Shown here: positions 1 to 20,818 of the stretch, in pieces
Layout of the letters: each line of letters begins with the position of its first letter
How positions within the stretch are numbered: the stretch's first letter is position 1
Assembly (NCBI GenBank): GCA_944359625.1
Contig: CALVSW010000014.1
Span: 1-34,500, forward strand
DNA length: 34,500 bases
Reading direction: 5' to 3'
Source: an uncultured Bacilli bacterium
GTDB taxonomy: Bacteria > Bacillota_I > Bacilli_A > RF39 > UBA660
Notes under the pieces: model-generated
What the model was told of the DNA's origin: nothing
Seen by the model: only the letters and a program-made list of their open reading frames with translations
Database searches by the model: none
Program-made: the position numbers and the translations under genes

Positions 1-172
1 ATGTATATAGGTATTTTTATTTCGGATATCCAAATTTAAATTTATATATAATTCGGATTTCGATATTTTAATGAACAAGACTAATATTTTATAATGAATT
101 TTGAAATTAGAAATGGTAAAATATTTATAGATGTATTTTTCATCTAGGGATAATCTACATTTGATACAGGCA
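1..172. other. AT-rich stretch with no recognisable gene
   Basis: I see no open reading frame with a ribosome binding site on either strand. The sequence is low-complexity A+T with a short hairpin-like AGATG/CATCT pair near 127-146, just before the template-like repeat. If a DGR reverse transcriptase belongs with the repeat at 173-285, it would have to lie left of this window. Confidence 0.5.
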
Positions 173-285
173 CATGTCGCCGAACAATTTCAACTCTGGC
201 AACTCTGCTGCTAACGAGTTCCGTCAGAACGCGACTGGTAATGCTAACAACGACTGGGTGACCAACACCAATGGCTTGCGTCCGG
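173..285 (+). repeat. DGR template-repeat (TR)-like sequence
   Basis: This 113-bp GC-rich block in an AT-rich background is homologous over its whole length to the cores at 12100-12212 (+) and 20623-20735 (-), and to the split copy at 519-664 plus 10056-10133. Read in the WSMSP frame it gives MSP-NNFNSGNSAANEF and ends NTN-GLRP, with AAC or AAT at nearly every position that varies in the other copies. Such loading with AAY codons is the known hallmark of a DGR template repeat, because adenines are the mutated base. Homology stops sharply at CATGTCGCCG on the left and at GCTTGCGTCCGG on the right; that right end has the GC-rich character of an IMH-type sequence. A few non-adenine differences (GCT at codon 9 after MSP, CGT at codon 14, GAC at codon 24) suggest that the cassettes were copied from a slightly different sibling or ancestral TR. 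No RT or Avd gene is visible nearby. Confidence 0.78.
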
Positions 286-490
286 ATTCCTACTACGATT
301 AGTAATACTAATGTACTGAGAATAGATGATTATGGTTATCTGTTAGAAGAAGTAGTAAGTATATAAAAATATACTTATAATCTAATTACAGATTGGAAAC
401 GAGATTATTCCTTGGTAATTTACCAGAACAAAAAATACAGATGTTAAAAACTACTATAAGTATTTTAAGACTATAAACTGTATTAGATAA
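286..490. other. Gene-poor interval between TR and terminator
   Basis: There is no supported gene. Short open stretches exist on the plus strand (one ending in LLEEVVSI at about 363, one reading LETRLFLGNLPEQ around 394-430), but neither has a start or a ribosome binding site. They could be remnants of a DGR accessory gene, which I cannot show. The interval probably forms the 3' part of a transcript covering the TR and ending at the terminator at 491-518. Confidence 0.4.
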
Positions 491-518
491 AGCAGGATTT
501 ATTCCTGTTTTTTCTTTT
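491..518 (+). terminator. Intrinsic terminator abutting the VR cassette
   Basis: The stem CAGGA (493-497) / TCCTG (503-507) is extended by weaker A-T pairs and followed by an uninterrupted pyrimidine run with one C (508-518). The VR cassette begins at the very next base (GCCACCGG at 519). It would end any plus-strand transcript that contains the TR. Confidence 0.75.
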
Positions 519-664
519 GCCACCGGATATATGAATCGCTTAACTTATATCTACCAAAATGGCTATTATTGGTCCATGTCGCCGTCCTTTTTCAACGTTG
601 GCGCTCTTCTGCTTGCGAGTTCTATCATTACGCGGCTGGTCACGCTACCGGCCACAGCAATGTG
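519..664 (+). repeat. VR cassette, 5' part (split by the 9.4-kb element)
   Basis: It starts with GCCACCGGATATATGAATCG, as do the cassettes at 12045 and (reverse) 20790, and reads in frame FATGYMNRLTYIYQ-NGYYWSMSP before the variable core. In the core a single base is missing around 611 compared with the other copies, so the frame breaks. Homology to the cassette stops at the GTG at 662-664, where recombinase-derived sequence begins; the missing 3' part is at 10056-10133. There is no promoter or upstream gene body: a terminator lies directly before it. Its variable codons differ from the TR largely at adenines, but less cleanly than the other two cassettes, so it may come from another template. 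Confidence 0.8.
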
Positions 665-702
665 TATAGTCGTCTATTAAATGAAACTTTCTACCCAAAT
701 TA

Positions 703-732
703 GTGGCTACTTTTTATATAAAAAGTGACCAC
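703..732. repeat. Imperfect inverted repeat next to the left junction
   Basis: GTGG-ct-ACTTTTT-atat-AAAAAGT-ga-CCAC begins at the exact base where identity with the recombinase copy at 5026 ends. It may be a structured end of the element or a leftover hairpin; function unknown. Confidence 0.6.
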
Positions 733-824
733 TCATAATTATTTTATTAAAAATATGTGTTTACATCCTCTAGTTTTTAATTTAATTTATATAACACCTT
801 CTTTCAAAACAAAAAGAGAAGAAT

Positions 825-1058
825 AAAAAAATAGACTCATCCAATAAGGACGAATCTATCATGGTACCACCTTAATTTATATAACTAATTAAATTAATTA
901 TATATCTCTATATCTTAACGTGATTAACGGAATAATTTGTATATATTATTCTGATCCAAAGCTTCATTCAAATATATCAAATGTTAATTTACACCAACCA
1001 TTAACTCTCTATGCATGAAAATATTTTACTCTTCTTCACTGCTTTCAAACACAAGCAA
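825..1058 (-). ncRNA. T-box riboswitch leader with no downstream gene
   Basis: On the minus strand the leader contains the Stem I signature AGAGAG...GGTTGGTG (about 1010-985), the conserved T-box AAGGTGGTACCATG (873-860), and an intrinsic terminator of 12 base pairs, 859-848 with 842-831 around a 5-nt loop, followed by a U-run (830-825). T-box leaders sense uncharged tRNA and control aminoacyl-tRNA synthetase or amino-acid genes. A Shine-Dalgarno-like GAAAGAAGGTG follows at 806-796, but the next ATGs give at most nine codons and the element boundary comes at 702, so the regulated gene has been lost. I could not fix the specifier codon; the 3' side of Stem I reads GATATATTTGAATG. Confidence 0.85.
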
Positions 1059-1087
1059 ATTATAACACTTTTATATTAATTTATCAA
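1059..1087 (-). promoter_or_regulatory. Sigma-A promoter of the T-box leader
   Basis: Minus strand: -35 TTGATA (1087-1082), 17-nt spacer, -10 TATAAT (1064-1059). It lies just upstream of the leader, so the leader is probably still transcribed although it has no gene. Confidence 0.75.
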
Positions 1088-1090
1088 AAA

Positions 1091-1405
1091 TTATATTCCC
1101 ATTTTTTGCTTTATAATTTTTCTTATTTCATCTGAAATATAATATGTGTAATACGAACCTTTATCATATACAAATACAAAGAAACCTACCACATCAGATT
1201 CATATGCTGAAAAAATCATTGAGTTTTCATTATTAACTAATTTACTAAAAAACATTTGAGTAAACATATCATCTTTAGTCATTTCTAAAGTTTCTTTAAA
1301 TTCTTCAATAATATATTTTGCTAATTCTTTTATAGTTTTAATATCATATTCTTTTAATCTATTATTAATTATTTTCTCATCTATCTTTTCAAGTGAAGAT
1401 AACAT
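1091..1405 (-). CDS. Unrecognised small protein, possibly degraded
   Basis: A 104-residue acidic/lysine-rich protein without a signal peptide. I recognise no family. It begins with a mostly helical N-terminal half (roughly residues 1-50) and ends with a more beta-like hydrophobic stretch near residues 70-95 (VVGFFVFVYD). There is no convincing ribosome binding site before the ATG at 1405, and a stop lies close upstream, so it may be the surviving 3' part of a longer gene, or may start elsewhere. It lies downstream of the 499-residue gene, separated by a stem-loop, and just upstream of the orphan T-box promoter. No function assigned. Confidence 0.4.
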   Translation of the reverse strand: MLSSLEKIDEKIINNRLKEYDIKTIKELAKYIIEEFKETLEMTKDDMFTQMFFSKLVNNENSMIFSAYESDVVGFFVFVYDKGSYYTYYISDEIRKIIKQKMGI

Positions 1406-1444
1406 ATCTGTTTTACTATCTTTTTATCACTAGCTTCCCTCTGA

Positions 1445-1472
1445 GTAGTGTGTACTGTTTTTGTCACACTAC
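1445..1472 (-). terminator. Stem-loop directly after the 499-residue gene
   Basis: GTAGTGTG / CACACTAC (eight base pairs, 12-nt loop) starts at the base after the stop codon of the gene ending at 1473. It lacks a clear U-run, so it may act as a 3' stabilising hairpin rather than a true intrinsic terminator. Confidence 0.5.
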
Positions 1473-2972
1473 CTATAAATGATAGTGCACAATAGCACAT
1501 TTCATTTTATCTACTATATCTTTTTTTACATCATTTCCAAATACTATATCTACATTTCCAAAAAAACTTTTAAATACTATAACGCCCTTAAACATAAGTA
1601 ATGTTGTACTAATAATTTTTGGTAATTCTTTAGGATTCATCATTTTATCAAAATCTGTTCTAATACCTTTTACCATATATAATTTTCCATCATCTGATAG
1701 TATTTTTGTATACTCTCTATCAAATCCCACAATAACAAAATAGTTACTAGTAATAGCATTTTTAAATTTATTTATTTCTGAAAGCTCTTCTTCAGTAAAT
1801 TTATAATCATTGTCTTTTATAAAATCACTAATAATTTCTTTATGTTTCCATAAATATTTATCGATATCATATATTTTATTAACATCTATTCCTTCTTGTT
1901 TATATATTTTTTTTATTTCTGGATGGATTTTATATTTTTTATTTATGTAATCTAACAAAGCAAAATAAAGTTTATAATAATGATCAGCAGCATTTTTACA
2001 TAAATGAGCATTATTTTGAGGAATACATGAGAATTCTCTATCTAAATCCAATTCTTCATAAAGTTGATTATTATACTCATTTGGAGTAAAACCATTCATA
2101 GCTGCGCAAGGGCATTCATCAAGTGCTTCGTTTACAACTTCAAGTAATCTATTATCCATAAATGTGTCAAGTCCCATTCTATTATTTAATACTCTTGCTT
2201 CATCAATAATTTGAAATAAAAATTCCTTATCAACTCTTTTATTTATTTCATTATACATTTTTTTGATTTTTTCTTTTCTAATAGGAAATCCATAATAGAA
2301 AGTATCAAAATCGTCTCTTATATCAAAAGGTATTGAGCCAGCTATTCCATATATTTTTCTTGATTCTTTTAACTCATTTAATATATTGTAATAATCTCTA
2401 TAACTAACAAGCTCTTCCTCTTGTTTAGAAAAATCAAAAAATTCATAATTAAATTCACAATAAAAATGAAATAATGGAGATCCCATAATACTATTAATTT
2501 CTTTTTCATCAATATTGTACATACTTTCAATCATAGAAGTTAATGCTTTTGTTAACATAATAGCATTGGTTTTGACTTTACTTATCATAAAAATAATAAT
2601 ATCTTCAATTCCTTTTTTATTATTTTGTTCATAAGTTTTTAAGGCATCTTGTACATTTTGTTTTTGTTCTTCAAATACTTCTAATGTAACTCTACTAAAA
2701 ATACATTTTTCATTTAATATTTTTATTTCCCATTCATATTTCTTTATATCATCTACACTTAATTTATTTTTACTTATATACTTTAAGAAATCAAGTTCTT
2801 TTCTTGTACAAATATGATATAAATAGTTTTCTTGATTATATTCTTTTATAATTTCTTCAAGCATTTTATTTCTTGTAATGTTATCATAATCTTTTGTTTT
2901 ATAAACAATCTTAAGGTACGTTTCATATAACATTTCCTTTGGCAATTTCAAATATTCATCTTTTAATTTCAT
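1473..2972 (-). CDS. Unrecognised 499-residue cytosolic protein
   Basis: I do not recognise this family. The protein is soluble, charged and largely helical, without signal peptide or membrane segments. A CPC motif followed by AAMNGFTPNEY stands near residues 290-305, in a region that also has isolated Cys and His residues (CIPQNNAHLCK, HYYKLY), which could bind metal, but that is a guess. The C-terminal about 90 residues look like a separate alpha/beta domain. The start at 2972 is supported by AGAGGT seven bases upstream. The first 17 bases overlap the end of the phosphoesterase gene, whose last codons contain this ribosome binding site, implying translational coupling. Accessory cargo of the element; defence or nucleic-acid roles are possible but unsupported. 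Confidence 0.75.
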   Translation of the reverse strand: MKLKDEYLKLPKEMLYETYLKIVYKTKDYDNITRNKMLEEIIKEYNQENYLYHICTRKELDFLKYISKNKLSVDDIKKYEWEIKILNEKCIFSRVTLEVFEEQKQNVQDALKTYEQNNKKGIEDIIIFMISKVKTNAIMLTKALTSMIESMYNIDEKEINSIMGSPLFHFYCEFNYEFFDFSKQEEELVSYRDYYNILNELKESRKIYGIAGSIPFDIRDDFDTFYYGFPIRKEKIKKMYNEINKRVDKEFLFQIIDEARVLNNRMGLDTFMDNRLLEVVNEALDECPCAAMNGFTPNEYNNQLYEELDLDREFSCIPQNNAHLCKNAADHYYKLYFALLDYINKKYKIHPEIKKIYKQEGIDVNKIYDIDKYLWKHKEIISDFIKDNDYKFTEEELSEINKFKNAITSNYFVIVGFDREYTKILSDDGKLYMVKGIRTDFDKMMNPKELPKIISTTLLMFKGVIVFKSFFGNVDIVFGNDVKKDIVDKMKCAIVHYHL

Positions 2973-3492
2973 TATTTTTACCTCTTATTTTATTAATTTT
3001 ATCTAAACTTACTGGTTTATAGTTAGTAACATCAACACTTAAATTAACATGTTTATTTTCAGTATAGTTTTTAGGATAATCATCACTAATTTTTTTATTA
3101 TGAATGTGTCCGTGTAAATTAATATATTCCTCTTTGATTTTAGCATCTGGTAGTGGTACATGAGATAACATTATTTTATATTCATCTAATATGATTGGTG
3201 CATGTGTCAAAACCTTAAAACCAACGTTTTCATAAAATTTAACAGGTTTTCTATCATGATTACCACGAATTAATATTTTATTTCCATTTAACTTATTAAA
3301 AATATTTTTAATTTCATCATCATTAGATAAACAAAAATCTCCTAAATGATATATAGTATCATCTTTTTTAACAATACTATTCCAATTATTAATTATGGTT
3401 TCATTCATTTCATTAATATCTTTAAAAGGTCTATTACAATATTTGATAATATTACTATGATGAAAATGTGTATCAGAAATAACATATATCAT
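2956..3492 (-). CDS. Calcineurin-like metallophosphoesterase
   Basis: A 178-residue protein with the metal-binding motifs of the superfamily in order: D-x-H near the N-terminus (SDTHFHHSNI, residues 6-15), GD (HLGDF, about residue 51), GNHD (RGNHDRKP, about residues 76-83), a single His (LSHVP), and GH-x-H near residue 128 (LHGHIHNKK). These bind two divalent metal ions and catalyse phosphoester hydrolysis. The short length and HFHHSNIIKYCNRPF signature match the small phage- and element-borne phosphoesterases whose substrates are mostly unknown. The start has TAGGAG about ten bases upstream. It lies 17 bases after the ATPase gene and overlaps the 499-residue gene, so the three probably form one operon. 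Confidence 0.9.
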   Translation of the reverse strand: MIYVISDTHFHHSNIIKYCNRPFKDINEMNETIINNWNSIVKKDDTIYHLGDFCLSNDDEIKNIFNKLNGNKILIRGNHDRKPVKFYENVGFKVLTHAPIILDEYKIMLSHVPLPDAKIKEEYINLHGHIHNKKISDDYPKNYTENKHVNLSVDVTNYKPVSLDKINKIRGKNNEIKR

Positions 3493-3509
3493 TTACACAA
3501 CACTCCTAA

Positions 3510-4700
3510 TTATTTATCTAATAACCAGTCTAATACATTTATCTTTCTTATACCATCAAAAGTAGTTTCTGGGTCTATATCATTAACAAGCAAGAACTTT
3601 TGATAATGATCTTTTACTGCTTTAAGTGGTCTTAATTCTCTTTCTAAAGTATTCTTATCTCTAACCGTTTCACAAACTTGATAATACTCTATACCTTTAC
3701 TATTTATTGCGACAAAATCTATTTCATATTCATCAACTTTACCGATATATACATCATATCCACGTCTTTTAAGTTCCAAATAAACTACATTTTCTAATAT
3801 ATGTCCTTTATCTCCCTCTCTTCTACCAAGTAAAAAATATCTCATTCCTAAATCAGCTACATAATACTTATCTCCTGTTTTTAGATACTGCTTACCTTTA
3901 ACATCATATCTACTTGCTCTATAAAATACAAACGCCTCTAGTAAAGAGTTTATATAACTTTCAACAGTATGAACACTTATAGAACGACCATTTGAAGTCA
4001 TTGTATCAGCTATCTTATTTGTTGAAGTTAAATTACCAACATTATCTAACATAAAATTAACAACACTTTGAAACATTAACATATCAGGAAATTTACGTCT
4101 TGCCATTATATCTTTTAAAAGAATAGAGTCATATATACCTTTTATATACATTTCAATATTATCTGTATTATTTAAACTTAACACATAAGGAAAAGAACCA
4201 TTAGATATATATTTTTGAAATAATCTATCTTCACTTTTATCATCACTTATAGATACATATTCTTTAAATGATAATGGTAACATCTTTATTTCTATATATC
4301 TTCCAGAGAGTAATGTAGCAAGTTCGCCTGATAAAAGATTAGCATTAGAACCAGTTATATATAAATCCACATTTTTTTTAATGTATAAACCATCACAAGC
4401 TTTTTGAAATTTCGGTATAGCTTGTACCTCATCTAAAAATACATAATTTTTTTTCTTAGGATTTAATTTTTCTGAAACAAAATTATATAATTTCATATAG
4501 TCATCTAAATCATGATATATTGGATCTTCAAGATTTATCTTTATTATTTGACTTTCATCCACACCATTATCTAACAAATAACCTTCAAATAAGTCAAACA
4601 ATGTTGATTTGCCACATCTTCTTATTCCAGTTACAACTTTAATTAATTCCTTATCTTTAAAATCTTTTAATATTTTTAAATATTCTTCTCTTTGTATCAT
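3510..4700 (-). CDS. AAA-type ATPase with DUF4143 (archaeal-type ATPase family)
   Basis: A 396-residue protein. Walker A is GIRRCGKST (about residues 25-33), Walker B is YVFLDEVQ (about residues 86-93), and a sensor-1-like TGSNANLLSG follows near residues 115-125, in the order typical of the AAA_14/DUF4143 ATPases. The C-terminal third has the DUF4143 pattern: LENVVYLELKRRGYDVYIGK and a nuclease-like EIDFVA (the D/E-x-D stretch seen in PD-(D/E)xK-like domains). Family members are abundant in gut anaerobes and their biological role is not established. It is the first gene of a three-gene operon with a strong promoter and an inverted-repeat operator upstream (4718-4773). Start at 4700 is supported by GGTGAT five bases upstream. 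Confidence 0.9.
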   Translation of the reverse strand: MIQREEYLKILKDFKDKELIKVVTGIRRCGKSTLFDLFEGYLLDNGVDESQIIKINLEDPIYHDLDDYMKLYNFVSEKLNPKKKNYVFLDEVQAIPKFQKACDGLYIKKNVDLYITGSNANLLSGELATLLSGRYIEIKMLPLSFKEYVSISDDKSEDRLFQKYISNGSFPYVLSLNNTDNIEMYIKGIYDSILLKDIMARRKFPDMLMFQSVVNFMLDNVGNLTSTNKIADTMTSNGRSISVHTVESYINSLLEAFVFYRASRYDVKGKQYLKTGDKYYVADLGMRYFLLGRREGDKGHILENVVYLELKRRGYDVYIGKVDEYEIDFVAINSKGIEYYQVCETVRDKNTLERELRPLKAVKDHYQKFLLVNDIDPETTFDGIRKINVLDWLLDK

Positions 4701-4717
4701 ATTTCATCACCAATTTA

Positions 4718-4746
4718 ATTCTATATCAATTTTGCATAAATGTCAA
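4718..4746 (-). promoter_or_regulatory. Sigma-A promoter for the ATPase operon
   Basis: Minus strand: consensus -35 TTGACA (4746-4741), 17-nt spacer, -10 TAGAAT (4723-4718). It is followed by the ribosome binding site and ATG at 4700. Confidence 0.8.
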
Positions 4747-4773
4747 CTTTTTGCAGTGCCAATGCAAAAAGTT
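4745..4773. promoter_or_regulatory. Perfect 11-bp inverted repeat, likely operator
   Basis: AACTTTTTGCA - 7 nt - TGCAAAAAGTT, touching the -35 box of the ATPase promoter. Further TTTTTGCA/TTTGC half-sites follow at about 4788-4860. The position suggests a repressor or activator site; no regulator gene is evident beside it. Confidence 0.7.
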
Positions 4774-4878
4774 CTTGTTTTTAGACGTTTTTTGCAACTA
4801 TATTATTTGCGTTAAAATGCAAATCTTTTATATTTTTTAGTAATTTTTTGCATATGCATTTCAAAAAATATAGGTATA

Positions 4879-5364
4879 TCAGAAATATGTGTAACAATTA
4901 TATTCATATTCAACATCATATTTTTTAGTATATTTACTAGTTAATCCTCTAGTTATAGTAAAGGTATCATTTAAAAGACCACAAGGTGTATAGTCGTCTA
5001 TTAAATGAAACTTTCTACCCAAATTATCGGAGAATATATTTATGCTTTCTCCTGTCTTAATATAAATACCTAGTTTTATCTTTTTACAGTCTTCTTTATA
5101 AACATATACTTTATCAATTAATTCATTAAATACATCGCTATAACATTTATCATCATTTAAACAATTATCTAACACCTTTTTTAGTTCCTTAATTTTATTT
5201 TCAATATAATTTTTATCCTGCTTGTTATTTTGTAATTCATTTAATCTGTTTTGATTAGTAATTATTTCTTCATTAATTAAATCTACCTGTTTTTTATAGT
5301 CCTCTTTAGATAAGTATTCTTCCATAACAAGTTCTAGTAATTTATCTTTTTTATTATTAAACAT
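4879..5364 (-). pseudogene. Serine recombinase, C-terminal fragment
   Basis: 161 codons remain, starting at an accidental ATG. They begin within the coiled-coil linker typical of large serine recombinases (EEYLSKEDYKKQVDLINEEI, then heptad-rich sequence to about residue 90), followed by the closing beta domain (FNELIDKVYVYKEDC, IKTGESINIF). The catalytic N-terminal domain with its serine and the recombinase/zinc-ribbon domains are missing. The 5' end is fused to a broken AbiEii gene. The stretch at 4894-5026 is the only uninterrupted copy of the sequence that is split between the two element ends, so it resembles the attP of the element, with GTG at 4986-4988. Large members are usually about 500 residues. 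Either a relic of a previous integrase or part of a second nested insertion. Confidence 0.8.
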
Positions 5365-5454
5365 TAAAATTTTGAATTATATATTCATTAGGAATATTTG
5401 TTTGTATTGCTAAATTAGATGCTTTTGCTTTTAAACTATCTTTATTTTAATCAT
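5357..5454 (-). pseudogene. AbiEii-type nucleotidyltransferase toxin, N-terminal remnant
   Basis: Directly after abiEi (ATG at 5454 overlapping its TGA) the minus strand reads KDSLKAKASNLAIQTNIPNEYIIQNF, which matches the opening of AbiEii/AbiGii toxins (SLKxKAxNLAxxxxI...ILQxYFFERFL). The ATG is not in frame with this stretch, so there is a frameshift within the first codons. After about 26 residues the frame ends and serine-recombinase sequence begins. The catalytic nucleotidyltransferase core is absent, so no toxin can be made. Confidence 0.7.
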
Positions 5455-6038
5455 TTAAGAACCTCAAATGTATCTCTTACTTTATTATAAACATTCATCT
5501 TTTTAGCATACTCATATAATTTTAAAGTATTTTTCTTTTTGCTATAAAAATATTCTCTAATAGCTTTATTATAAATTTCCGAATCTAATTTCTTTTTATT
5601 TTTGATAATATCACAAATAGTTTTATCTAAATCGTAAATTCTAATAACATTGCCTGAATCAAGTTTATAGTCTATTACACCTAAATTTAAAAGTTCTTTT
5701 TTGGTATAAAATAAATTAACATTATTATTTTTTTGAAGAGATCCGTTATATCCATTATTAATAGTAATATCATATTTTAAAGGAATTCTATTAGAAAATC
5801 CATGTAAATATAAAGCAGTCATATTTGAATAAATTGCATACTTACTTTTACTTTGTAAAATAACAAATTCATCAACCAATTCATTTTTCTTAATATATAC
5901 TCCTCGACTTACTCTTTCTATTTTGTTTTCTTTAATAAGTTTAGTTAAATAAAATCTAGGAATATTATTATCATTAACATCTTTAGTAGTTAAATAACCA
6001 TTTTTAAATAAATTTAAAATTTTATTTTCATATTCCAT
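5451..6038 (-). CDS. abiEi: AbiEi-family antitoxin / transcriptional regulator
   Basis: A 195-residue protein. The N-terminal winged helix (residues about 5-50) has GYLTTKDVNDNNIPRFYLTKLIKENKIERVSRGVYI, the standard AbiEi antitoxin signature, followed by the C-terminal antitoxin domain (SKYAIYSNMTALYLHGFSNRIP, KYDITINNGYNG, VIRIYDLDKTICDIIKNKKKLD). AbiEi normally represses its own operon by binding inverted repeats and neutralises AbiEii, a nucleotidyltransferase toxin, in abortive infection. The ATG at 6038 is chosen because AAAGGA precedes it by nine bases; a GTG at 6056 lies inside the operator. A perfect inverted repeat sits at the promoter (6054-6083). Its toxin partner has been destroyed, so the protein is an orphan antitoxin, perhaps protecting against related AbiEii elsewhere. 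Confidence 0.88.
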   Translation of the reverse strand: MEYENKILNLFKNGYLTTKDVNDNNIPRFYLTKLIKENKIERVSRGVYIKKNELVDEFVILQSKSKYAIYSNMTALYLHGFSNRIPLKYDITINNGYNGSLQKNNNVNLFYTKKELLNLGVIDYKLDSGNVIRIYDLDKTICDIIKNKKKLDSEIYNKAIREYFYSKKKNTLKLYEYAKKMNVYNKVRDTFEVLK

Positions 6039-6053
6039 ATTATCATTTCCTTT

Positions 6054-6083
6054 CACGATTAAATTATATCACATTTAATCGTG
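6054..6083 (-). promoter_or_regulatory. abiEi promoter with inverted-repeat operator
   Basis: CACGATTAAAT - 8 nt - ATTTAATCGTG is a perfect 11-bp inverted repeat. The -10 box TATAAT (minus strand, 6068-6063) lies partly in its spacer, so a bound dimer would block transcription. This fits the negative autoregulation known for AbiEi proteins. Confidence 0.82.
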
Positions 6084-6101
6084 TTTGAAAATATTGTGAT
6101 T

Positions 6102-6175
6102 AAAAAAAACATTGTTTTAACACTAATATTTTAAAATAAATATTTAATTTATTACTAATAATGTTAAAAACAATG
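6102..6175 (-). terminator. Long hairpin terminator after the exporter operon
   Basis: Minus strand: CATTGTTTTTAACATTA (from 6175) pairs with TAGTGTTAAAACAATG (to 6110) around an AT-rich loop, followed by a run of T (6109-6102). It closes the four-gene exporter operon before abiEi. Confidence 0.7.
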
Positions 6176-6210
6176 CTTTATTTTAGTAAATATTTTATCA
6201 ATACTGTTTA

Positions 6211-6510
6211 TTAAGTATTTGTATTATTTAAAGAACTATTTTTATTTTTAGCAAAATATTCTTTTTTTAATTTAGAAATAGTTCCTATAATCAAGAATAA
6301 ATCTATGATAATAAGTAAAATTCCTGCAATTATACTTTCTTTAAATGCTAAAATACTAACAATAAATATAAATCCAATTACCAATACAAAAAATAATAAT
6401 ATTATTACAATCAATGGATACCTAATAAATTTAGGGACTTTATTACTTTTACTTGTTTCTAGCATTCCATCAAATAAAAATTCAAATATTAATTCTATTA
6501 TAAAATCCAT
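6211..6510 (-). CDS. Small membrane protein of the exporter operon
   Basis: A 99-residue protein with two strongly hydrophobic segments (about residues 30-56 and 60-77) and a lysine/asparagine-rich, probably cytoplasmic tail. I recognise no family. The start has AAAAGGAG five bases upstream and lies 29 bases after the second ABC-2 permease, so it is the last gene of the exporter operon. It could be an accessory or immunity subunit of the exporter, which is inference from position only. Confidence 0.75.
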   Translation of the reverse strand: MDFIIELIFEFLFDGMLETSKSNKVPKFIRYPLIVIILLFFVLVIGFIFIVSILAFKESIIAGILLIIIDLFLIIGTISKLKKEYFAKNKNSSLNNTNT

Positions 6511-6539
6511 GCTTACTCCTTTTATTAAAATTGTTATTT

Positions 6540-7688
6540 TTAACCTATTTTTTGTTTTCTTTTTGATACTATATTAGTTAGAATAATAAACATAATAGAA
6601 AAAGATAATACAATTATAATATTTAATAATATTGGTTTTATAGTATTTAAATTAATAAGTTCTAATGTTTTTAAAACTTCATTATTACTTATATAGTAAT
6701 ATGAAGGTAAAATATGAGCAATTTTTATAACTCCATCTGGTAGCCACTCCATTGGAACAAATGCTCCACATAAGAAACTTGATCCAAGAGCTATTACATT
6801 AACTATTCCACTTATTGCATTTTTATTTGAAACTATATTACCAATAAATAAGGCAATTGTGGTAGCACATATTGTAAATACAAATGAATTTATTAAGTAA
6901 AAAATGCCATGAATAGAAAACATTATATCCCCTACTAAAATGAAACTTAATACAACATATATCATCCACAAAATTATGGAAAACAAACTATTTGATAACA
7001 ATATTTTTCTATTTAAAGTTTTATAATTAGTACTACTAATAATTGTTCTTTTTTGAATTTTTATATCTTTAAAACTTGCTAAAATCAAACATATAACATA
7101 TATCAAACATGCCATTATGCTATAGTTAGCAAAATTATAATAAAATGTTGCTTTTGATAAAATATTAGTATCTAATTTGGATGTTATTTTAACTTCACTT
7201 TTTTTAGATAAAGTTTCATTTATTTTATTAATTAATTCTTCTTCACTATTAATCCTTTTTTGATAAATATTTGCTACTTTAATATATCTTGATAGTAACA
7301 TTTCGGCAAATGATGATTGATAATCTCCCGTACTTTTAATTTCTATTTCAGGATTTTTTCCATCCATAAAATCTTTATTATAATTTTTAGGAATATATAC
7401 TACATAATTTACATCTCTATAAAATAAGGCATCATTAATTGCATCTTCATTATTCTTTAAATCTACTACATTACTATTTTCTTCTATATATTTTATTAAA
7501 TCTTTTGTAATTCCTTTTTCTTCATCATAATTTACTATCATTATATCTGGTTTACTTGCAACAAAGTTTATATTACTCTCACTTGTTTGCATATTAAATC
7601 CACCAAAGAATATTAAAAATAATGTGTATAATATTATAATGAATTTATTTTTATTCAATATTTTTAAAAATGTTTTAAACACTGTCAT
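6540..7688 (-). CDS. ABC-2 type transporter permease (second subunit)
   Basis: A 382-residue membrane protein of the ABC-2 family: one N-terminal membrane segment (about residues 15-33), a large extracytoplasmic domain (about 35-190), then five or six membrane segments. The closing part has the usual layout, including NAISGIVNVIALGSSFLCGAFVPMEWLP and ILPSYYYISNNEV, corresponding to the conserved G-[FY]-xP-x-[DE]-xLP region of the family. Its first 14 bases overlap the other permease gene, so translation is coupled. With the partner permease and ATPase it should form a heterodimeric exporter, most likely for drugs, peptides or lipids; the substrate cannot be read from sequence. Confidence 0.9.
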   Translation of the reverse strand: MTVFKTFLKILNKNKFIIILYTLFLIFFGGFNMQTSESNINFVASKPDIMIVNYDEEKGITKDLIKYIEENSNVVDLKNNEDAINDALFYRDVNYVVYIPKNYNKDFMDGKNPEIEIKSTGDYQSSFAEMLLSRYIKVANIYQKRINSEEELINKINETLSKKSEVKITSKLDTNILSKATFYYNFANYSIMACLIYVICLILASFKDIKIQKRTIISSTNYKTLNRKILLSNSLFSIILWMIYVVLSFILVGDIMFSIHGIFYLINSFVFTICATTIALFIGNIVSNKNAISGIVNVIALGSSFLCGAFVPMEWLPDGVIKIAHILPSYYYISNNEVLKTLELINLNTIKPILLNIIIVLSFSIMFIILTNIVSKRKQKIG

Positions 7689-8856
7689 ATTTTTGCCTCC
7701 TTAAACTGATATAAGAAACTACTATCAATGTGAAAGCAAAAATAAGCAAACTTACAACATTAAATATATATCTATCTAAAGTTTCATAATAATATAAAGA
7801 ATATAAACCATCTGTTATCATATTTGCAGGATTTAATTTATTAATAATCGGAATATTTTTATCAATTATGTATTTCATTGTTATTCCCATCATTCCTGAT
7901 AAAAAACAACCTAACATTGTTATAGATAAAATTATTCCAGTTTTAACATTTTCATTTGATTTAATTATTGTTGCTACTAAAACACCTAATGATAATCCTG
8001 CTAGACTTCCTACCATTGCTAAAATAATAATTAATCCTAAATTATTACCATAATCAACATTTAATACAAAGATAGTATAAATAAATAATAATGCAACTCC
8101 TATTAATTGAGTAATATAGCTTGCAAGAACACTACTTAAAATTACTTTACCTTTTGTTGTGGGTGCTACTGATACTCTTTTTCCTTGATTAGACATATTA
8201 GCTAAATTTTGATTTATAGAAACAGTTCCAAGTATCCCACCATATAAACAAACCATTGCAATAAGTGTATAAAATTCTATCATTGTATAACTTAGATTAT
8301 CACTCGAAATATTCTTAAGTTTAACATTTTCTTCAGTTGTAATCTCTATTACTTTATTATAAATACTTTCATAGTCAACATTGAAATTTCCTGTCATAAT
8401 TTGGTTTTGTATTTCTTCTTCAGTAAGGTTATTTATAATATTACTTGTTTGCATAATTTCTTCTGATACATATTTAAATATAGTTTCATTAATACCACTT
8501 GTTATAAAAGTTAATTTAGGTTTATCATCTATTAACTCCATATACCCAACTACTTTTTCTTCTTCTAGTAATTTTTGTGCTTCTTCTTTTGTAGTGTATT
8601 TGGTTTCGAATAATCTATCCTTATTATTTTTATCACTCATTTCTTCAAAGGCTGATTTAAAAACTTCATTATTATCAAAATCATCATTTTGAATAATTGC
8701 TATATTTATAATGTCTAATTTTTCACTATTTTCTATATCTGAAAACGCCATATTAAAGAAAGTTGCTAATATTATTGGAAATGCAAAAGTCCAAAATATT
8801 AATTCTTTGTTTCTAAAAAGAGTTTTTAAAGAATATTTAAAATTATGAATAAACAT
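7675..8856 (-). CDS. ABC-2 type transporter permease (first subunit)
   Basis: A 393-residue membrane protein with the same architecture as its neighbour: one N-terminal membrane segment beginning in FRNKELIFWTFAFPIILATFFNMAF (residues about 15-39), an extracytoplasmic domain with many charged residues to about residue 190, then a six-helix block ending near residue 385. FRNKELIFWTFAFPI is a typical entry motif of ABC-2 (YadH/YhgE-like) permeases. The start codon at 8856 directly precedes the stop of the ATPase gene (8857-8859), so the genes abut. Likely pairs with the downstream permease. Confidence 0.9.
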   Translation of the reverse strand: MFIHNFKYSLKTLFRNKELIFWTFAFPIILATFFNMAFSDIENSEKLDIINIAIIQNDDFDNNEVFKSAFEEMSDKNNKDRLFETKYTTKEEAQKLLEEEKVVGYMELIDDKPKLTFITSGINETIFKYVSEEIMQTSNIINNLTEEEIQNQIMTGNFNVDYESIYNKVIEITTEENVKLKNISSDNLSYTMIEFYTLIAMVCLYGGILGTVSINQNLANMSNQGKRVSVAPTTKGKVILSSVLASYITQLIGVALLFIYTIFVLNVDYGNNLGLIIILAMVGSLAGLSLGVLVATIIKSNENVKTGIILSITMLGCFLSGMMGITMKYIIDKNIPIINKLNPANMITDGLYSLYYYETLDRYIFNVVSLLIFAFTLIVVSYISLRRQKYDSV

Positions 8857-9795
8857 TTAATCTCTAAGTTCCTTTCCAGTTAATTCAAGAAACACATCGT
8901 TAAGTGTTGGTCTTTCTGAATATATTTTATTATATTTAATATTATTTTTCTTTAAAAACTCCATTATTTCAACTAAATTATTTTTACCTTTTTTATATGT
9001 AACAAGCAATATATTACTACTATATTTAACATCATCTACATTTTTTAATTCTTTTATTTTATCTATGTAATTAATATCTAAGTCATTTATTTCTATCGAT
9101 ATTTTTTCTTCTATTTTAGCTAATTCTTTTAATTCATCAGTTTTACCAGTTGCTAAGATTTTACCTTTATCGAGTATAATAACTCTATCACAAAGTATTT
9201 CAACTTCTTCCATGTAATGTGTTGTATATACGATCGTTGCTCCATTATCTCGTAATTTTTTTATTCCATCTAGAATATTATTTCTACTTTGTGGATCTAC
9301 TGCAACAGTTGGCTCATCTAAAAAAATAAGTTTAGGTTTATGGGCTATACCACACGCAATATTTAATCGTCTTAATAAACCACCAGATAATTTTTTGGGA
9401 TAAAAGTTTTTAAAACTTTCCAAACCTACTAAGTTTATTGCATCTTCAATATACTTTTTTCTTGTTTCTTTATTATTAATATATAGTCCACAAAAATAAT
9501 CTACATTTTCGTAAACAGTTAATTCATCAAAAACTGCTACTTCTTGAAATACAACACCTATTTTAGATTTTATATCGTAAGAATCGGGTTTCATCTCTTT
9601 ACCAAATATTTTTATACTTCCACTACTATAATTTAATAGTGATAATAGACAATTTATTGTTGTTGTTTTGCCACTTCCATTTGGACCTAAAAGACCTAGA
9701 ATTTCTCCTTCATGAACTTCAAAAGATAAGTTATCTACTGCTTTTATTTCTTTATATTCTTTTATTAAATTTTTAACTTCAATTACATTTTTCAT
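8857..9795 (-). CDS. ABC transporter ATP-binding protein
   Basis: A 312-residue ATPase. Walker A is GPNGSGKTT (about residues 38-46), the Q-loop is VVFQEVAVFDELT, the signature is LSGGLLRRL (about 137-145), Walker B is LIFLDEPT, the D-loop is VAVDPQSR and the switch His is in TTHYMEE. The C-terminal about 90 residues form the DUF4162-like domain ending in RPTLNDVFLELTGKELRD, characteristic of the ABC-A (drug/lantibiotic exporter) subfamily. The ATG at 9795 is chosen because AAAGGGAG stands six bases upstream; a longer reading from 9822 would use a start without a ribosome binding site. First gene of a four-gene operon. Confidence 0.93.
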   Translation of the reverse strand: MKNVIEVKNLIKEYKEIKAVDNLSFEVHEGEILGLLGPNGSGKTTTINCLLSLLNYSSGSIKIFGKEMKPDSYDIKSKIGVVFQEVAVFDELTVYENVDYFCGLYINNKETRKKYIEDAINLVGLESFKNFYPKKLSGGLLRRLNIACGIAHKPKLIFLDEPTVAVDPQSRNNILDGIKKLRDNGATIVYTTHYMEEVEILCDRVIILDKGKILATGKTDELKELAKIEEKISIEINDLDINYIDKIKELKNVDDVKYSSNILLVTYKKGKNNLVEIMEFLKKNNIKYNKIYSERPTLNDVFLELTGKELRD

Positions 9796-9897
9796 TTCAT
9801 ACTCCCTTTTTAATGAAAACATTTTTTAATATAATTACTTTTAGATAATTATTTTTGTTTTTTCAAACATACCCATAATTTATCACTTACATTTATT

Positions 9898-9906
9898 ATT
9901 ATACCA
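9898..9906 (-). promoter_or_regulatory. Probable extended -10 promoter of the exporter operon
   Basis: Minus strand TGGTATAAT: TATAAT at 9903-9898 with the TGn extension before it. The -35 region is not recognisable. It lies about 100 bases upstream of the ATPase gene start, leaving a leader of roughly 90 nt. Confidence 0.5.
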
Positions 9907-9960
9907 TAGACTTTTGGCATATTTTATTAATAGTAGTATTTAAATCTATATATTTATCAA

Positions 9961-10055
9961 ACACTTATATTCATACTCCACATCATATTTTTTAGTGTAT
10001 TTACTATTTAATCCTCTAGTAATAGTAAGGGTATCATTTAAAAGACCACAAGGTG
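9961..10055 (-). pseudogene. Serine recombinase C-terminal end at the right junction (attR-like)
   Basis: The minus strand encodes PCGLLNDTLTITRGLNSKYT and continues KKYDVEYEYKCLINI to a stop just past 9961. This is about 93% identical over 95 bases to 4894-4988 inside the element, with differences such as T for F, N for T and a different terminus. The upstream coding part is replaced at GTG (10053-10055) by VR cassette sequence. It represents the half of the recombinase gene carried to the right end on integration. The body of this gene is not found at the left end, where only 38 bases remain. Confidence 0.75.
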
Positions 10056-10133
10056 GCCGACGGCTTTGGCTTGCGTCCGGTAATCAATCTGCAATCTGAT
10101 GTCACGATAATGATTAATGTAACAAAAAACTAA
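10056..10133 (+). repeat. VR cassette, 3' part (partner of 519-664)
   Basis: Continues the cassette interrupted at 664: in frame it reads ADGFGLRPVINLQSDVTIMI and then NVTKN to a stop (10131-10133). The segment GGCTTGCGTCCGGTAATC is shared with the cassettes at 12045-12230 and 20611-20793. Joined to 519-664 across GTG it gives ...ATGHSNVADGFGLRPVINL, one codon longer than the other copies and with a non-Trp residue where they have W. Unlike the other cassettes it keeps a plausible natural protein C-terminus. Confidence 0.8.
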
Positions 10134-10153
10134 TAACGTAAAAATTATTAGTT
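10124..10153 (-). terminator. Terminator of the histidine kinase gene
   Basis: Minus strand: AACTAATAA (10153-10145), 8-nt loop, TTATTAGTT (10136-10128), followed by T-rich sequence. It overlaps the last codons of the kinase gene and points toward the VR cassette end. Confidence 0.75.
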
Positions 10154-11995: not shown

Positions 11996-12044
11996 ACTAT
12001 CACCATTATAATTGTATCAAATTACATGACTAAAGTCTATATTT

Positions 12045-12230
12045 GCCACCGGATATATGAATCGCTTAACTAATAATACCCAAATGGCTATTATTGGTCC
12101 ATGTCGCCGTACGATTTCCACTCTGGCACCTCTTCTGCTCTCGAGTTCTATCAGCACGCGACTGGTTACGCTACCTACGACTGGGTGACCAGCAGCCATG
12201 GCTTGCGTCCGGTAATCAATCTGCAATCTG
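12045..12230 (+). repeat. VR cassette, complete, promoterless
   Basis: It starts GCCACCGG and ends CAATCTGCAATCTG. Its 113-bp core (12100-12212) aligns without gaps to the TR at 173-285 and encodes WSMSPYDFHSGTSSALEF, then YQHATGYATYDW and VTSSHGLRPVINL. I count 17 base differences from the TR, 12 at TR adenines; the other five lie in four codons that also differ from the TR in the copy at 20611-20793. Upstream of the core the frame is broken: TAA TAA precedes YPNGYYW because one A is missing compared with the copy at 519-664. The cassette lies between the kinase promoter and the terminator of the acyl-CoA synthetase gene. It has no start codon or ribosome binding site and is much richer in G+C than its surroundings. 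Confidence 0.88.
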
Positions 12231-12243
12231 CTAATTTCAAAAT

Positions 12244-12266
12244 AAAAAAAGTAATATTATTACTTT
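12244..12266 (-). terminator. Terminator of the acyl-CoA synthetase operon
   Basis: Minus strand GTAAT-AAT-ATTAC (12263-12251), extended by AAA/TTT, and followed by a T-run to about 12244. The VR cassette end lies about 15 bases further on. Confidence 0.75.
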
Positions 12267-20579: not shown

Positions 20580-20607
20580 AAGTAATTAATCAATAATTAC
20601 TTTTTTT
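20580..20607 (+). terminator. Terminator of the ger operon
   Basis: AAGTAATT (20580-20587) - 7 nt - AATTACTT (20595-20602) followed by T to 20607. The VR cassette begins four bases later. Confidence 0.85.
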
Positions 20608-20610
20608 ATT

Positions 20611-20793
20611 GCAGATTGATTACCGGACGCAAGCCATTGCCGACGGTCACCCAGCTGTTGGTAGCGTAACCAGGCGCGTCCTGAATGAACTCGCCAGCAG
20701 AAGAGGGGCCAGAGTAGAAATTGCCCGGCGACATGGACCAATAATTGCCATTTGGGTATTATTAGTTAAGCGATTCATATATCCGGTGGCAAA
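20611..20793 (-). repeat. VR cassette, complete, promoterless
   Basis: On the minus strand it runs from GCCACCGG (20790) to CAATCTGC (20611). The 113-bp core (20735-20623) encodes WSMSPGNFYSGPSSAGEF, then IQDAPGYATNSW and VTVGNGLRPVINL, aligned without gaps to the TR and to the cassette at 12045. I count 21 base differences from the TR, 15 at TR adenines. Between this copy and 12045-12230 there are 18 differences within the core but only one in the flanks. Both share the missing A upstream that breaks the frame before YYW. The cassette lies in the convergent gap between gerAB and frr; T-runs of the two opposing terminators touch both of its ends. No promoter, start codon or ribosome binding site. 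Confidence 0.9.
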
Positions 20794-20818
20794 TAAAAAA
20801 GTAGTATTTAAACTACTT
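20794..20818 (-). terminator. Terminator of frr
   Basis: Minus strand AAGTAGT - 6 nt - ACTACTT (20818-20799) followed by T-rich sequence to 20794. The VR cassette begins right after it. Confidence 0.85.

Follow-up and report, generated by a model that had tools for sequence, protein, structure and literature searches.

The genome that carries the window (the whole 34,500-nucleotide stretch of DNA analysed, contig C14) contains around 45 apparently promoterless cassettes of ~190 bp each, derived from the variable region (VR) of a diversity-generating retroelement (DGR), against a single full-length target gene. On the basis of the sequences compared here, we consider it probable that these cassettes form a DGR-derived silent-cassette gene-conversion system. 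In this model, a DGR (template repeat (TR) RNA, with RT and Avd either supplied in trans or lost since then) would have made adenine-directed C-terminal VR variants of one gene, and VR copies with a DNA homology arm on each side would have reached the 3' ends of other genes, at about 45 promoterless positions. Often placed right behind a terminator U-tract and between convergent genes, these sites would be expected to be transcribed on neither strand. Homologous recombination (gene conversion) would exchange VRs among the cassettes, and between them and the one full gene, with the cassettes serving as an archive of usable variants. More tentatively, but as a serious possibility, the DGR may write variants into one expressed gene while recombination stores them in dozens of insulated silent cassettes for recall, which would join a generator of mutations to a memory that is inherited.

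Window anatomy and cassette census

All data come from draft metagenome-assembled genomes: that of the window (G000; 1.25 Mb, 40 contigs, ~23% GC, 91% complete), and those of a sister species (G001; 89% complete) and a third congener (G002). The focal cassette, on the minus strand at 20608–20795, consists of a 5' arm (TTTGCCACCGGATATATGAATCGCTTAACT), a VR core and a 3' end (CAATCTGCAAT), and its VR frame (YWSMSP...GLRPV) is open. As the original prediction held, it lies between two opposing terminators with U-tracts touching it on both sides. The terminator of the upstream gene (20793–20817, minus strand; hairpin AAGTAGTTTAAATACTACTTTTTT, −6.3 kcal/mol) passes through its T-run directly into TTTGCC, the 5' end of the cassette, and the opposing terminator of a convergent plus-strand gene (20581–20607, plus strand; hairpin AAGTAATTAATCAATAATTACTTTTTTT, −5.4 kcal/mol) ends in 7 T that touch the 3' end. 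Both terminators are AT-rich; a scan requiring at least three G–C pairs missed the hairpins around 20608–20795 and 12250, and an AT-tolerant search found both.

The other predicted placements near terminators were also borne out. The plus-strand cassette at 12042–12230, which is 90% identical to the focal one, is followed by an opposing terminator (12243–12265, minus strand) whose hairpin (12250–12265) lies 20 nt past the cassette end, and its orthologous site in G001 is filled (C2:2097). A split cassette begins on the plus strand (left half, 516–659) right behind the terminator at 493–513, the natural end of a TR RNA unit, and its right half (10053–10098, plus strand) heads toward an opposing hairpin at 10129–10152. 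Between the halves, one or more integrated islands (660–10052) interrupt the VR at a GTG core, with attL/attP/attR-like sequences: the junctions at 660, 4982 and 10052 resemble attL, attP and attR of two tandem elements, and an integrase-like C-terminal fragment is found at 4879–5364 (phrog_95, E = 5e-6). VR cassettes may act as attB sites.

A search with the 12042 cassette returned 47 matches in G000, including three TRs and two trivial ones. A motif scan of the fetched G000 stretches yielded 45 copies, or 43 after removal of the full gene and one contig-end duplicate (C31:6122 / C7:43, with a flank in common); adding C11:30786 and a decayed copy (C13:16768) brought the total to ~45. The 5' end is sharply defined, with 39 of the 45 motif copies starting exactly at TTTGCC, five reaching 12 nt further (TATGTATGCCGGA) and the remaining one being the gene. 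The 3' ends are ragged, departing from the gene sequence 10 to 46 nt past GTCCGG. Tandem arrays of cassettes with a ~342-bp period and a common ~150-nt AT-rich spacer occur at C2:29218–30453, C20:1360–2305 and C1:123445–124717.

The original prediction described the window copies as having no N-terminal gene, promoter or start codon. Genome-wide, one copy of about 46 is in a full-length gene, and type-A cassettes, found outside the window, do have an in-frame ATG within the 5' arm (GGATATATGAATCGC), with no promoter or ribosome site shown. One subtype has a 5' arm shorter by 1 nt (ACTAATAATACCCAAATGG, TAATAATACCCAAATGG) and includes both whole cassettes of the window (arm positions 12042–12075 and 20760–20793) and around a quarter of those in G000, and a similar subtype occurs in G001. 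It is frame-shifted upstream of the VR, the whole window cassettes being open only from YPNGYYW onward; in this quarter of the cassettes, a conversion tract starting upstream of the shift would break the gene.

The sole full-length copy in G000 (contig C35, L038:842–2920, minus strand) encodes 692 aa with a hydrophobic N-terminal segment and a VR reading YWSMSP...GLRPVINL; a TR lies ~140 nt past its stop codon on the same strand. We class it as a surface-type gene; the protein has no Pfam, NCBIfam, PHROG or convincing PDB match. In 117 scanned genomes of the family, with up to 41 matches per genome, the C-terminal region lies mostly within long open frames (~400–800 aa), and cassette proliferation therefore looks particular to this genus. 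Within the genus, G001 has the same arrangement at many identical sites (one full gene, ~23 cassettes found) and also carries the 30-nt arm of the G000 cassettes, and G002 combines a classic DGR with three full genes. A viral origin was rejected, as IMG/VR gave no hit for the target protein or for the arm pattern.

DGR origin of the variable regions

Variation in the cassettes is adenine-directed. Across 42 VRs, 587 of 1,171 TR adenine positions were altered (50%), against 5% of C, 8% of G and 4% of T positions; each VR was scored against the nearest of three TR versions, and the C, G and T changes come partly from the use of several TRs. The window itself holds a DGR RNA unit (105–513, plus strand) that consists of a leader, the TR, a conserved spacer (GATTGGAAACGAGATTATTCCTTGGT) and a terminator of its own; we aligned the unit with four other G000 copies, with G001 and with the G002 DGR. 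Its TR core (173–285, plus strand) retains its adenines, is identical to the TR at C10:23426–23538 and has flanks unlike those of the VRs. The TR RNA, including ~200 nt past the TR, is conserved in all three genomes. Units of TR, RNA and terminator are repeated in G000 (C10:23107–23957, C20:7292–8140 and C14:173–516), and in three of the five G000 TR copies the TR terminator is immediately followed by another VR cassette.

The classic DGR of G002 comprises a target gene, TR, Avd (bAvd, E = 8e-13) and an RT with a GNMTSQ motif. Searches of the G000 and G001 assemblies (tblastn, RVT_1) found neither Avd nor a DGR RT, which may reflect an assembly gap at 89–91% completeness. Only two RTs were found in G000, on C18 (L042:153–2073) and C1 (L041:7001–7960), and both are retron St85-like; one adjoins a gene resembling an St85 family effector.

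The expression site has a further DGR-type feature. Two genes have a perfect 13-bp stem with a 4-nt loop (CTCC or CTCT) 3' of the VR: the full gene of G000, where it stands at +91, and the cis gene of G002, where it stands at +89. The stem sequences differ between the two, but the geometry does not. No such hairpin follows the G001 gene, the C24 gene of G002 or any silent cassette. Homing in BPP-1 requires a downstream hairpin 4–34 bp from the VR (PMC3240598), a range that +89/+91 exceeds. We infer that mutagenic homing would act on the expression site and that cassettes would receive their variants by recombination. In G000, the VR forms the coding end of one gene, and ~45 others lie outside full genes; a survey covering 948 DGRs found 92.6% of their VRs overlapping ORFs (PMC6642488).

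Terminators and occupied sites

To compare cassette positions with chance, we clustered copies into loci, scored abutment as a same-strand U-tract within 6 nt and took the background from independent stretches rather than cassette-rich ones. In G000, 11 of 32 loci fitted this definition, compared with 4.8% of positions in intergenic DNA (P = 2e-7), 6.3% of those on the 3' side of a gene (P = 2e-6) and 13.9% of 3'-side positions starting with TTT (P = 3e-3). In G001 the count was 8 of 20 (P = 2e-6, 2e-5 and 4e-3 against the same three backgrounds). Counting either an abutting same-strand terminator or an opposing one within 35 nt, 19 of the 32 G000 loci qualified. Gene orientation was also skewed: the 26 G000 loci with both neighbours called were convergent (13) or tandem (13) and never divergent, whereas background gaps comprised 12 convergent, 87 tandem and 18 divergent (convergent excess P = 2e-5; length-weighted, P = 1e-3). 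For abutment and orientation alike, the effect size is approximate, because gene calls were simple ORFs and the terminator score was self-devised. U-tract abutment is common, at about 35–40% of loci, yet not universal.

These counts run against both outcomes that would have refuted the original prediction: copies mostly lie outside full-length genes, and terminators are enriched genome-wide. The proposed distribution mechanism targeting terminators fared less evenly: the enrichment stood against random intergenic, 3'-side and TTT-matched positions, but targeting like that of group IIC introns is undemonstrated, and the RTs in G000 are retron St85-like. We rejected group IIC-like insertion, as no intron or intron RT was found; Rfam gave no intron match in the window. 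Selection for harmless sites insulated from transcription can produce the enrichment as well, and so can microhomology at T-runs.

Comparison of empty and filled sites, as the original prediction had proposed, separated the three genomes. G002 was empty at all three sites tested, and G001 was filled at the same sites, those of both whole window cassettes included. At the focal site, G002 has ~23 bp with one strong hairpin (−12.4 kcal/mol; C17:5305–5329); its other empty sites, at C10 and C1, measure 88 and 44 bp. Hairpin-bearing empty sites, a fixed TTTGCC start with a ragged 3' end and U-tract abutment above all backgrounds could also describe a mobile sequence that inserts behind terminator U-tracts, in the manner of a group IIC intron or through cDNA, and has no host function. 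We think this improbable: the cassettes contain no mobility gene, their gene-derived arms are not in the TR, open frames and gene–cassette identity indicate use, and the enrichment drops to P = 3e-3 against controls starting with TTT.

In at least one case, a gene may have been reduced to a cassette. The site of C1:112608 in G000 holds a full-length gene in G002 (C24), and the cassette retains part of the gene's 3' end; in addition, C19:6270 has lost its VR core and the C13 copy is decayed. Such cases would fit pseudogene debris, that is, truncated former full-length DGR target genes kept by chance. As a general account, we regard this as very improbable, because an identical start recurs at dozens of unrelated sites, the G002 sites are empty, the scored VRs have no stops and the loci are homogenised.

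Signs of use and related systems

The cassettes behave like an archive in use. Every VR scored, 42 in G000 and 20 silent ones in G001, has an open frame, with no stop in 826 G001 codons, even though non-adenine sites have drifted in many VRs of G001. The changes in these G001 VRs lean synonymous (47 of 93, against 22.7 expected; P = 5e-8), a weak excess when each change is counted once (14 of 41, against 8.7 expected; P = 0.04). An analysis of synonymous change relative to the consensus of G000 (P = 4e-21) was discarded, as it was inflated by species-fixed changes.

The arms show concerted evolution: they are nearly uniform within species (98.8% agreement in G000, 96.6% in G001) and fixed differently between species at shared sites (GCCACC..CGCTT in G000, GCCAAC..CGATT in G001). 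Gene and cassettes also share sequence directly: an exact 218-nt tract, running from TTTGCC onward, is common to the G000 full gene and the cassette at C1:112797. Among shared variable tracts, six pairs had at least 12 sites, against 0.6 in column shuffles, several of the strongest being whole-cassette duplicates. At the strain level, the same cassette on two contigs that are 98–99% identical (G000 C9 and G001 C66) differs by 19% in its VR and by 1.4–2.5% in its flanks, and its changes extend into both arms, past the TR homology. The second contig may be a misbinned one from a G000-like strain, which leaves the strain comparison unaffected. Together, open frames, concerted evolution, the 218-nt tract and strain-level turnover support well the original suggestion that the cassettes are a silent reservoir, whose copies would act as donors to the gene.

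Some of these patterns would also be expected if the cassettes were direct DGR targets, rewritten in place by mutagenic retrohoming, with the adjacent terminator hairpin serving as homing hairpin or cruciform. The adenine-specific diversity of the G000 cassettes, the need of BPP-1 homing for a downstream hairpin and the 19 loci near a terminator are in keeping with this. We nevertheless consider it unlikely, given that the strain-pair changes reach arm sequence outside the TR homology, that 218 nt are identical to the gene, that no cassette has the 13-bp, 4-nt-loop hairpin and that a DGR RT was not found in the assembly. We also rejected an artefact of assembly from a collapsed hypervariable repeat, to which we give almost no weight: the genomes are metagenome-assembled and some contigs end at cassettes, but two species whose genomes were assembled separately have cassettes at the same sites, and contigs from near-identical strains (L072 and G001 C66) span cassettes with unique flanks.

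We rate the preferred system, a DGR feeding silent cassettes that undergo conversion, as a junction of two known kinds. With DGRs (the BPP-1 type and the multi-target DGR of Treponema denticola) it shares adenine-directed TR variation, a conserved TR RNA and, at the G000 full gene, a C-terminal VR with a hairpin behind it, farther off than the published range, as well as Avd and RT in G002; it differs in that nearly all VRs lie outside full genes, as promoterless cassettes, and in that a DGR RT was found in neither cassette-bearing assembly. With Neisseria pilE/pilS, Borrelia vlsE and Treponema TprK, the last with 53 donor cassettes (PMC10063172), it shares one full gene with dozens of promoterless partial copies, homology arms, shared tracts and an open VR, and it would work in a similar way. 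Here, however, donor diversity would come from a DGR, and the cassettes are scattered genome-wide, often beside terminators. Group IIC introns also sit just past terminator hairpins, in the sense orientation, whereas the cassettes here are fragments of a protein gene and no ribozyme or intron RT was found. Integron gene cassettes are likewise promoterless units, sometimes in tandem arrays like those on C2, C20 and C1, but the cassettes here hold partial genes. The original prediction knew of no described DGR with this arrangement, and we likewise found no system combining a DGR with silent cassettes in the open-licence literature.

DGRs overwrite their own target, so useful variants are lost in the next round; silent-cassette systems preserve variants and cannot invent them. 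A joined system would solve both problems and show a way in which donor repertoires of the pilS or vls type can arise. The three congeners look like stages: G002 with a DGR and no archive, G000 with DGR features and an archive, and G001 with an archive and no homing hairpin. If the model is true, the archive in G001 would have outlived its generator.

In G000, the contig of the full gene has a perfect 77-nt inverted repeat at its two ends (L038 1–77 and 3292–3368). The repeat is identical in G002 (C21:14584–14660) and resembles the promoter and start of outward-facing genes; the full-gene locus might be invertible.
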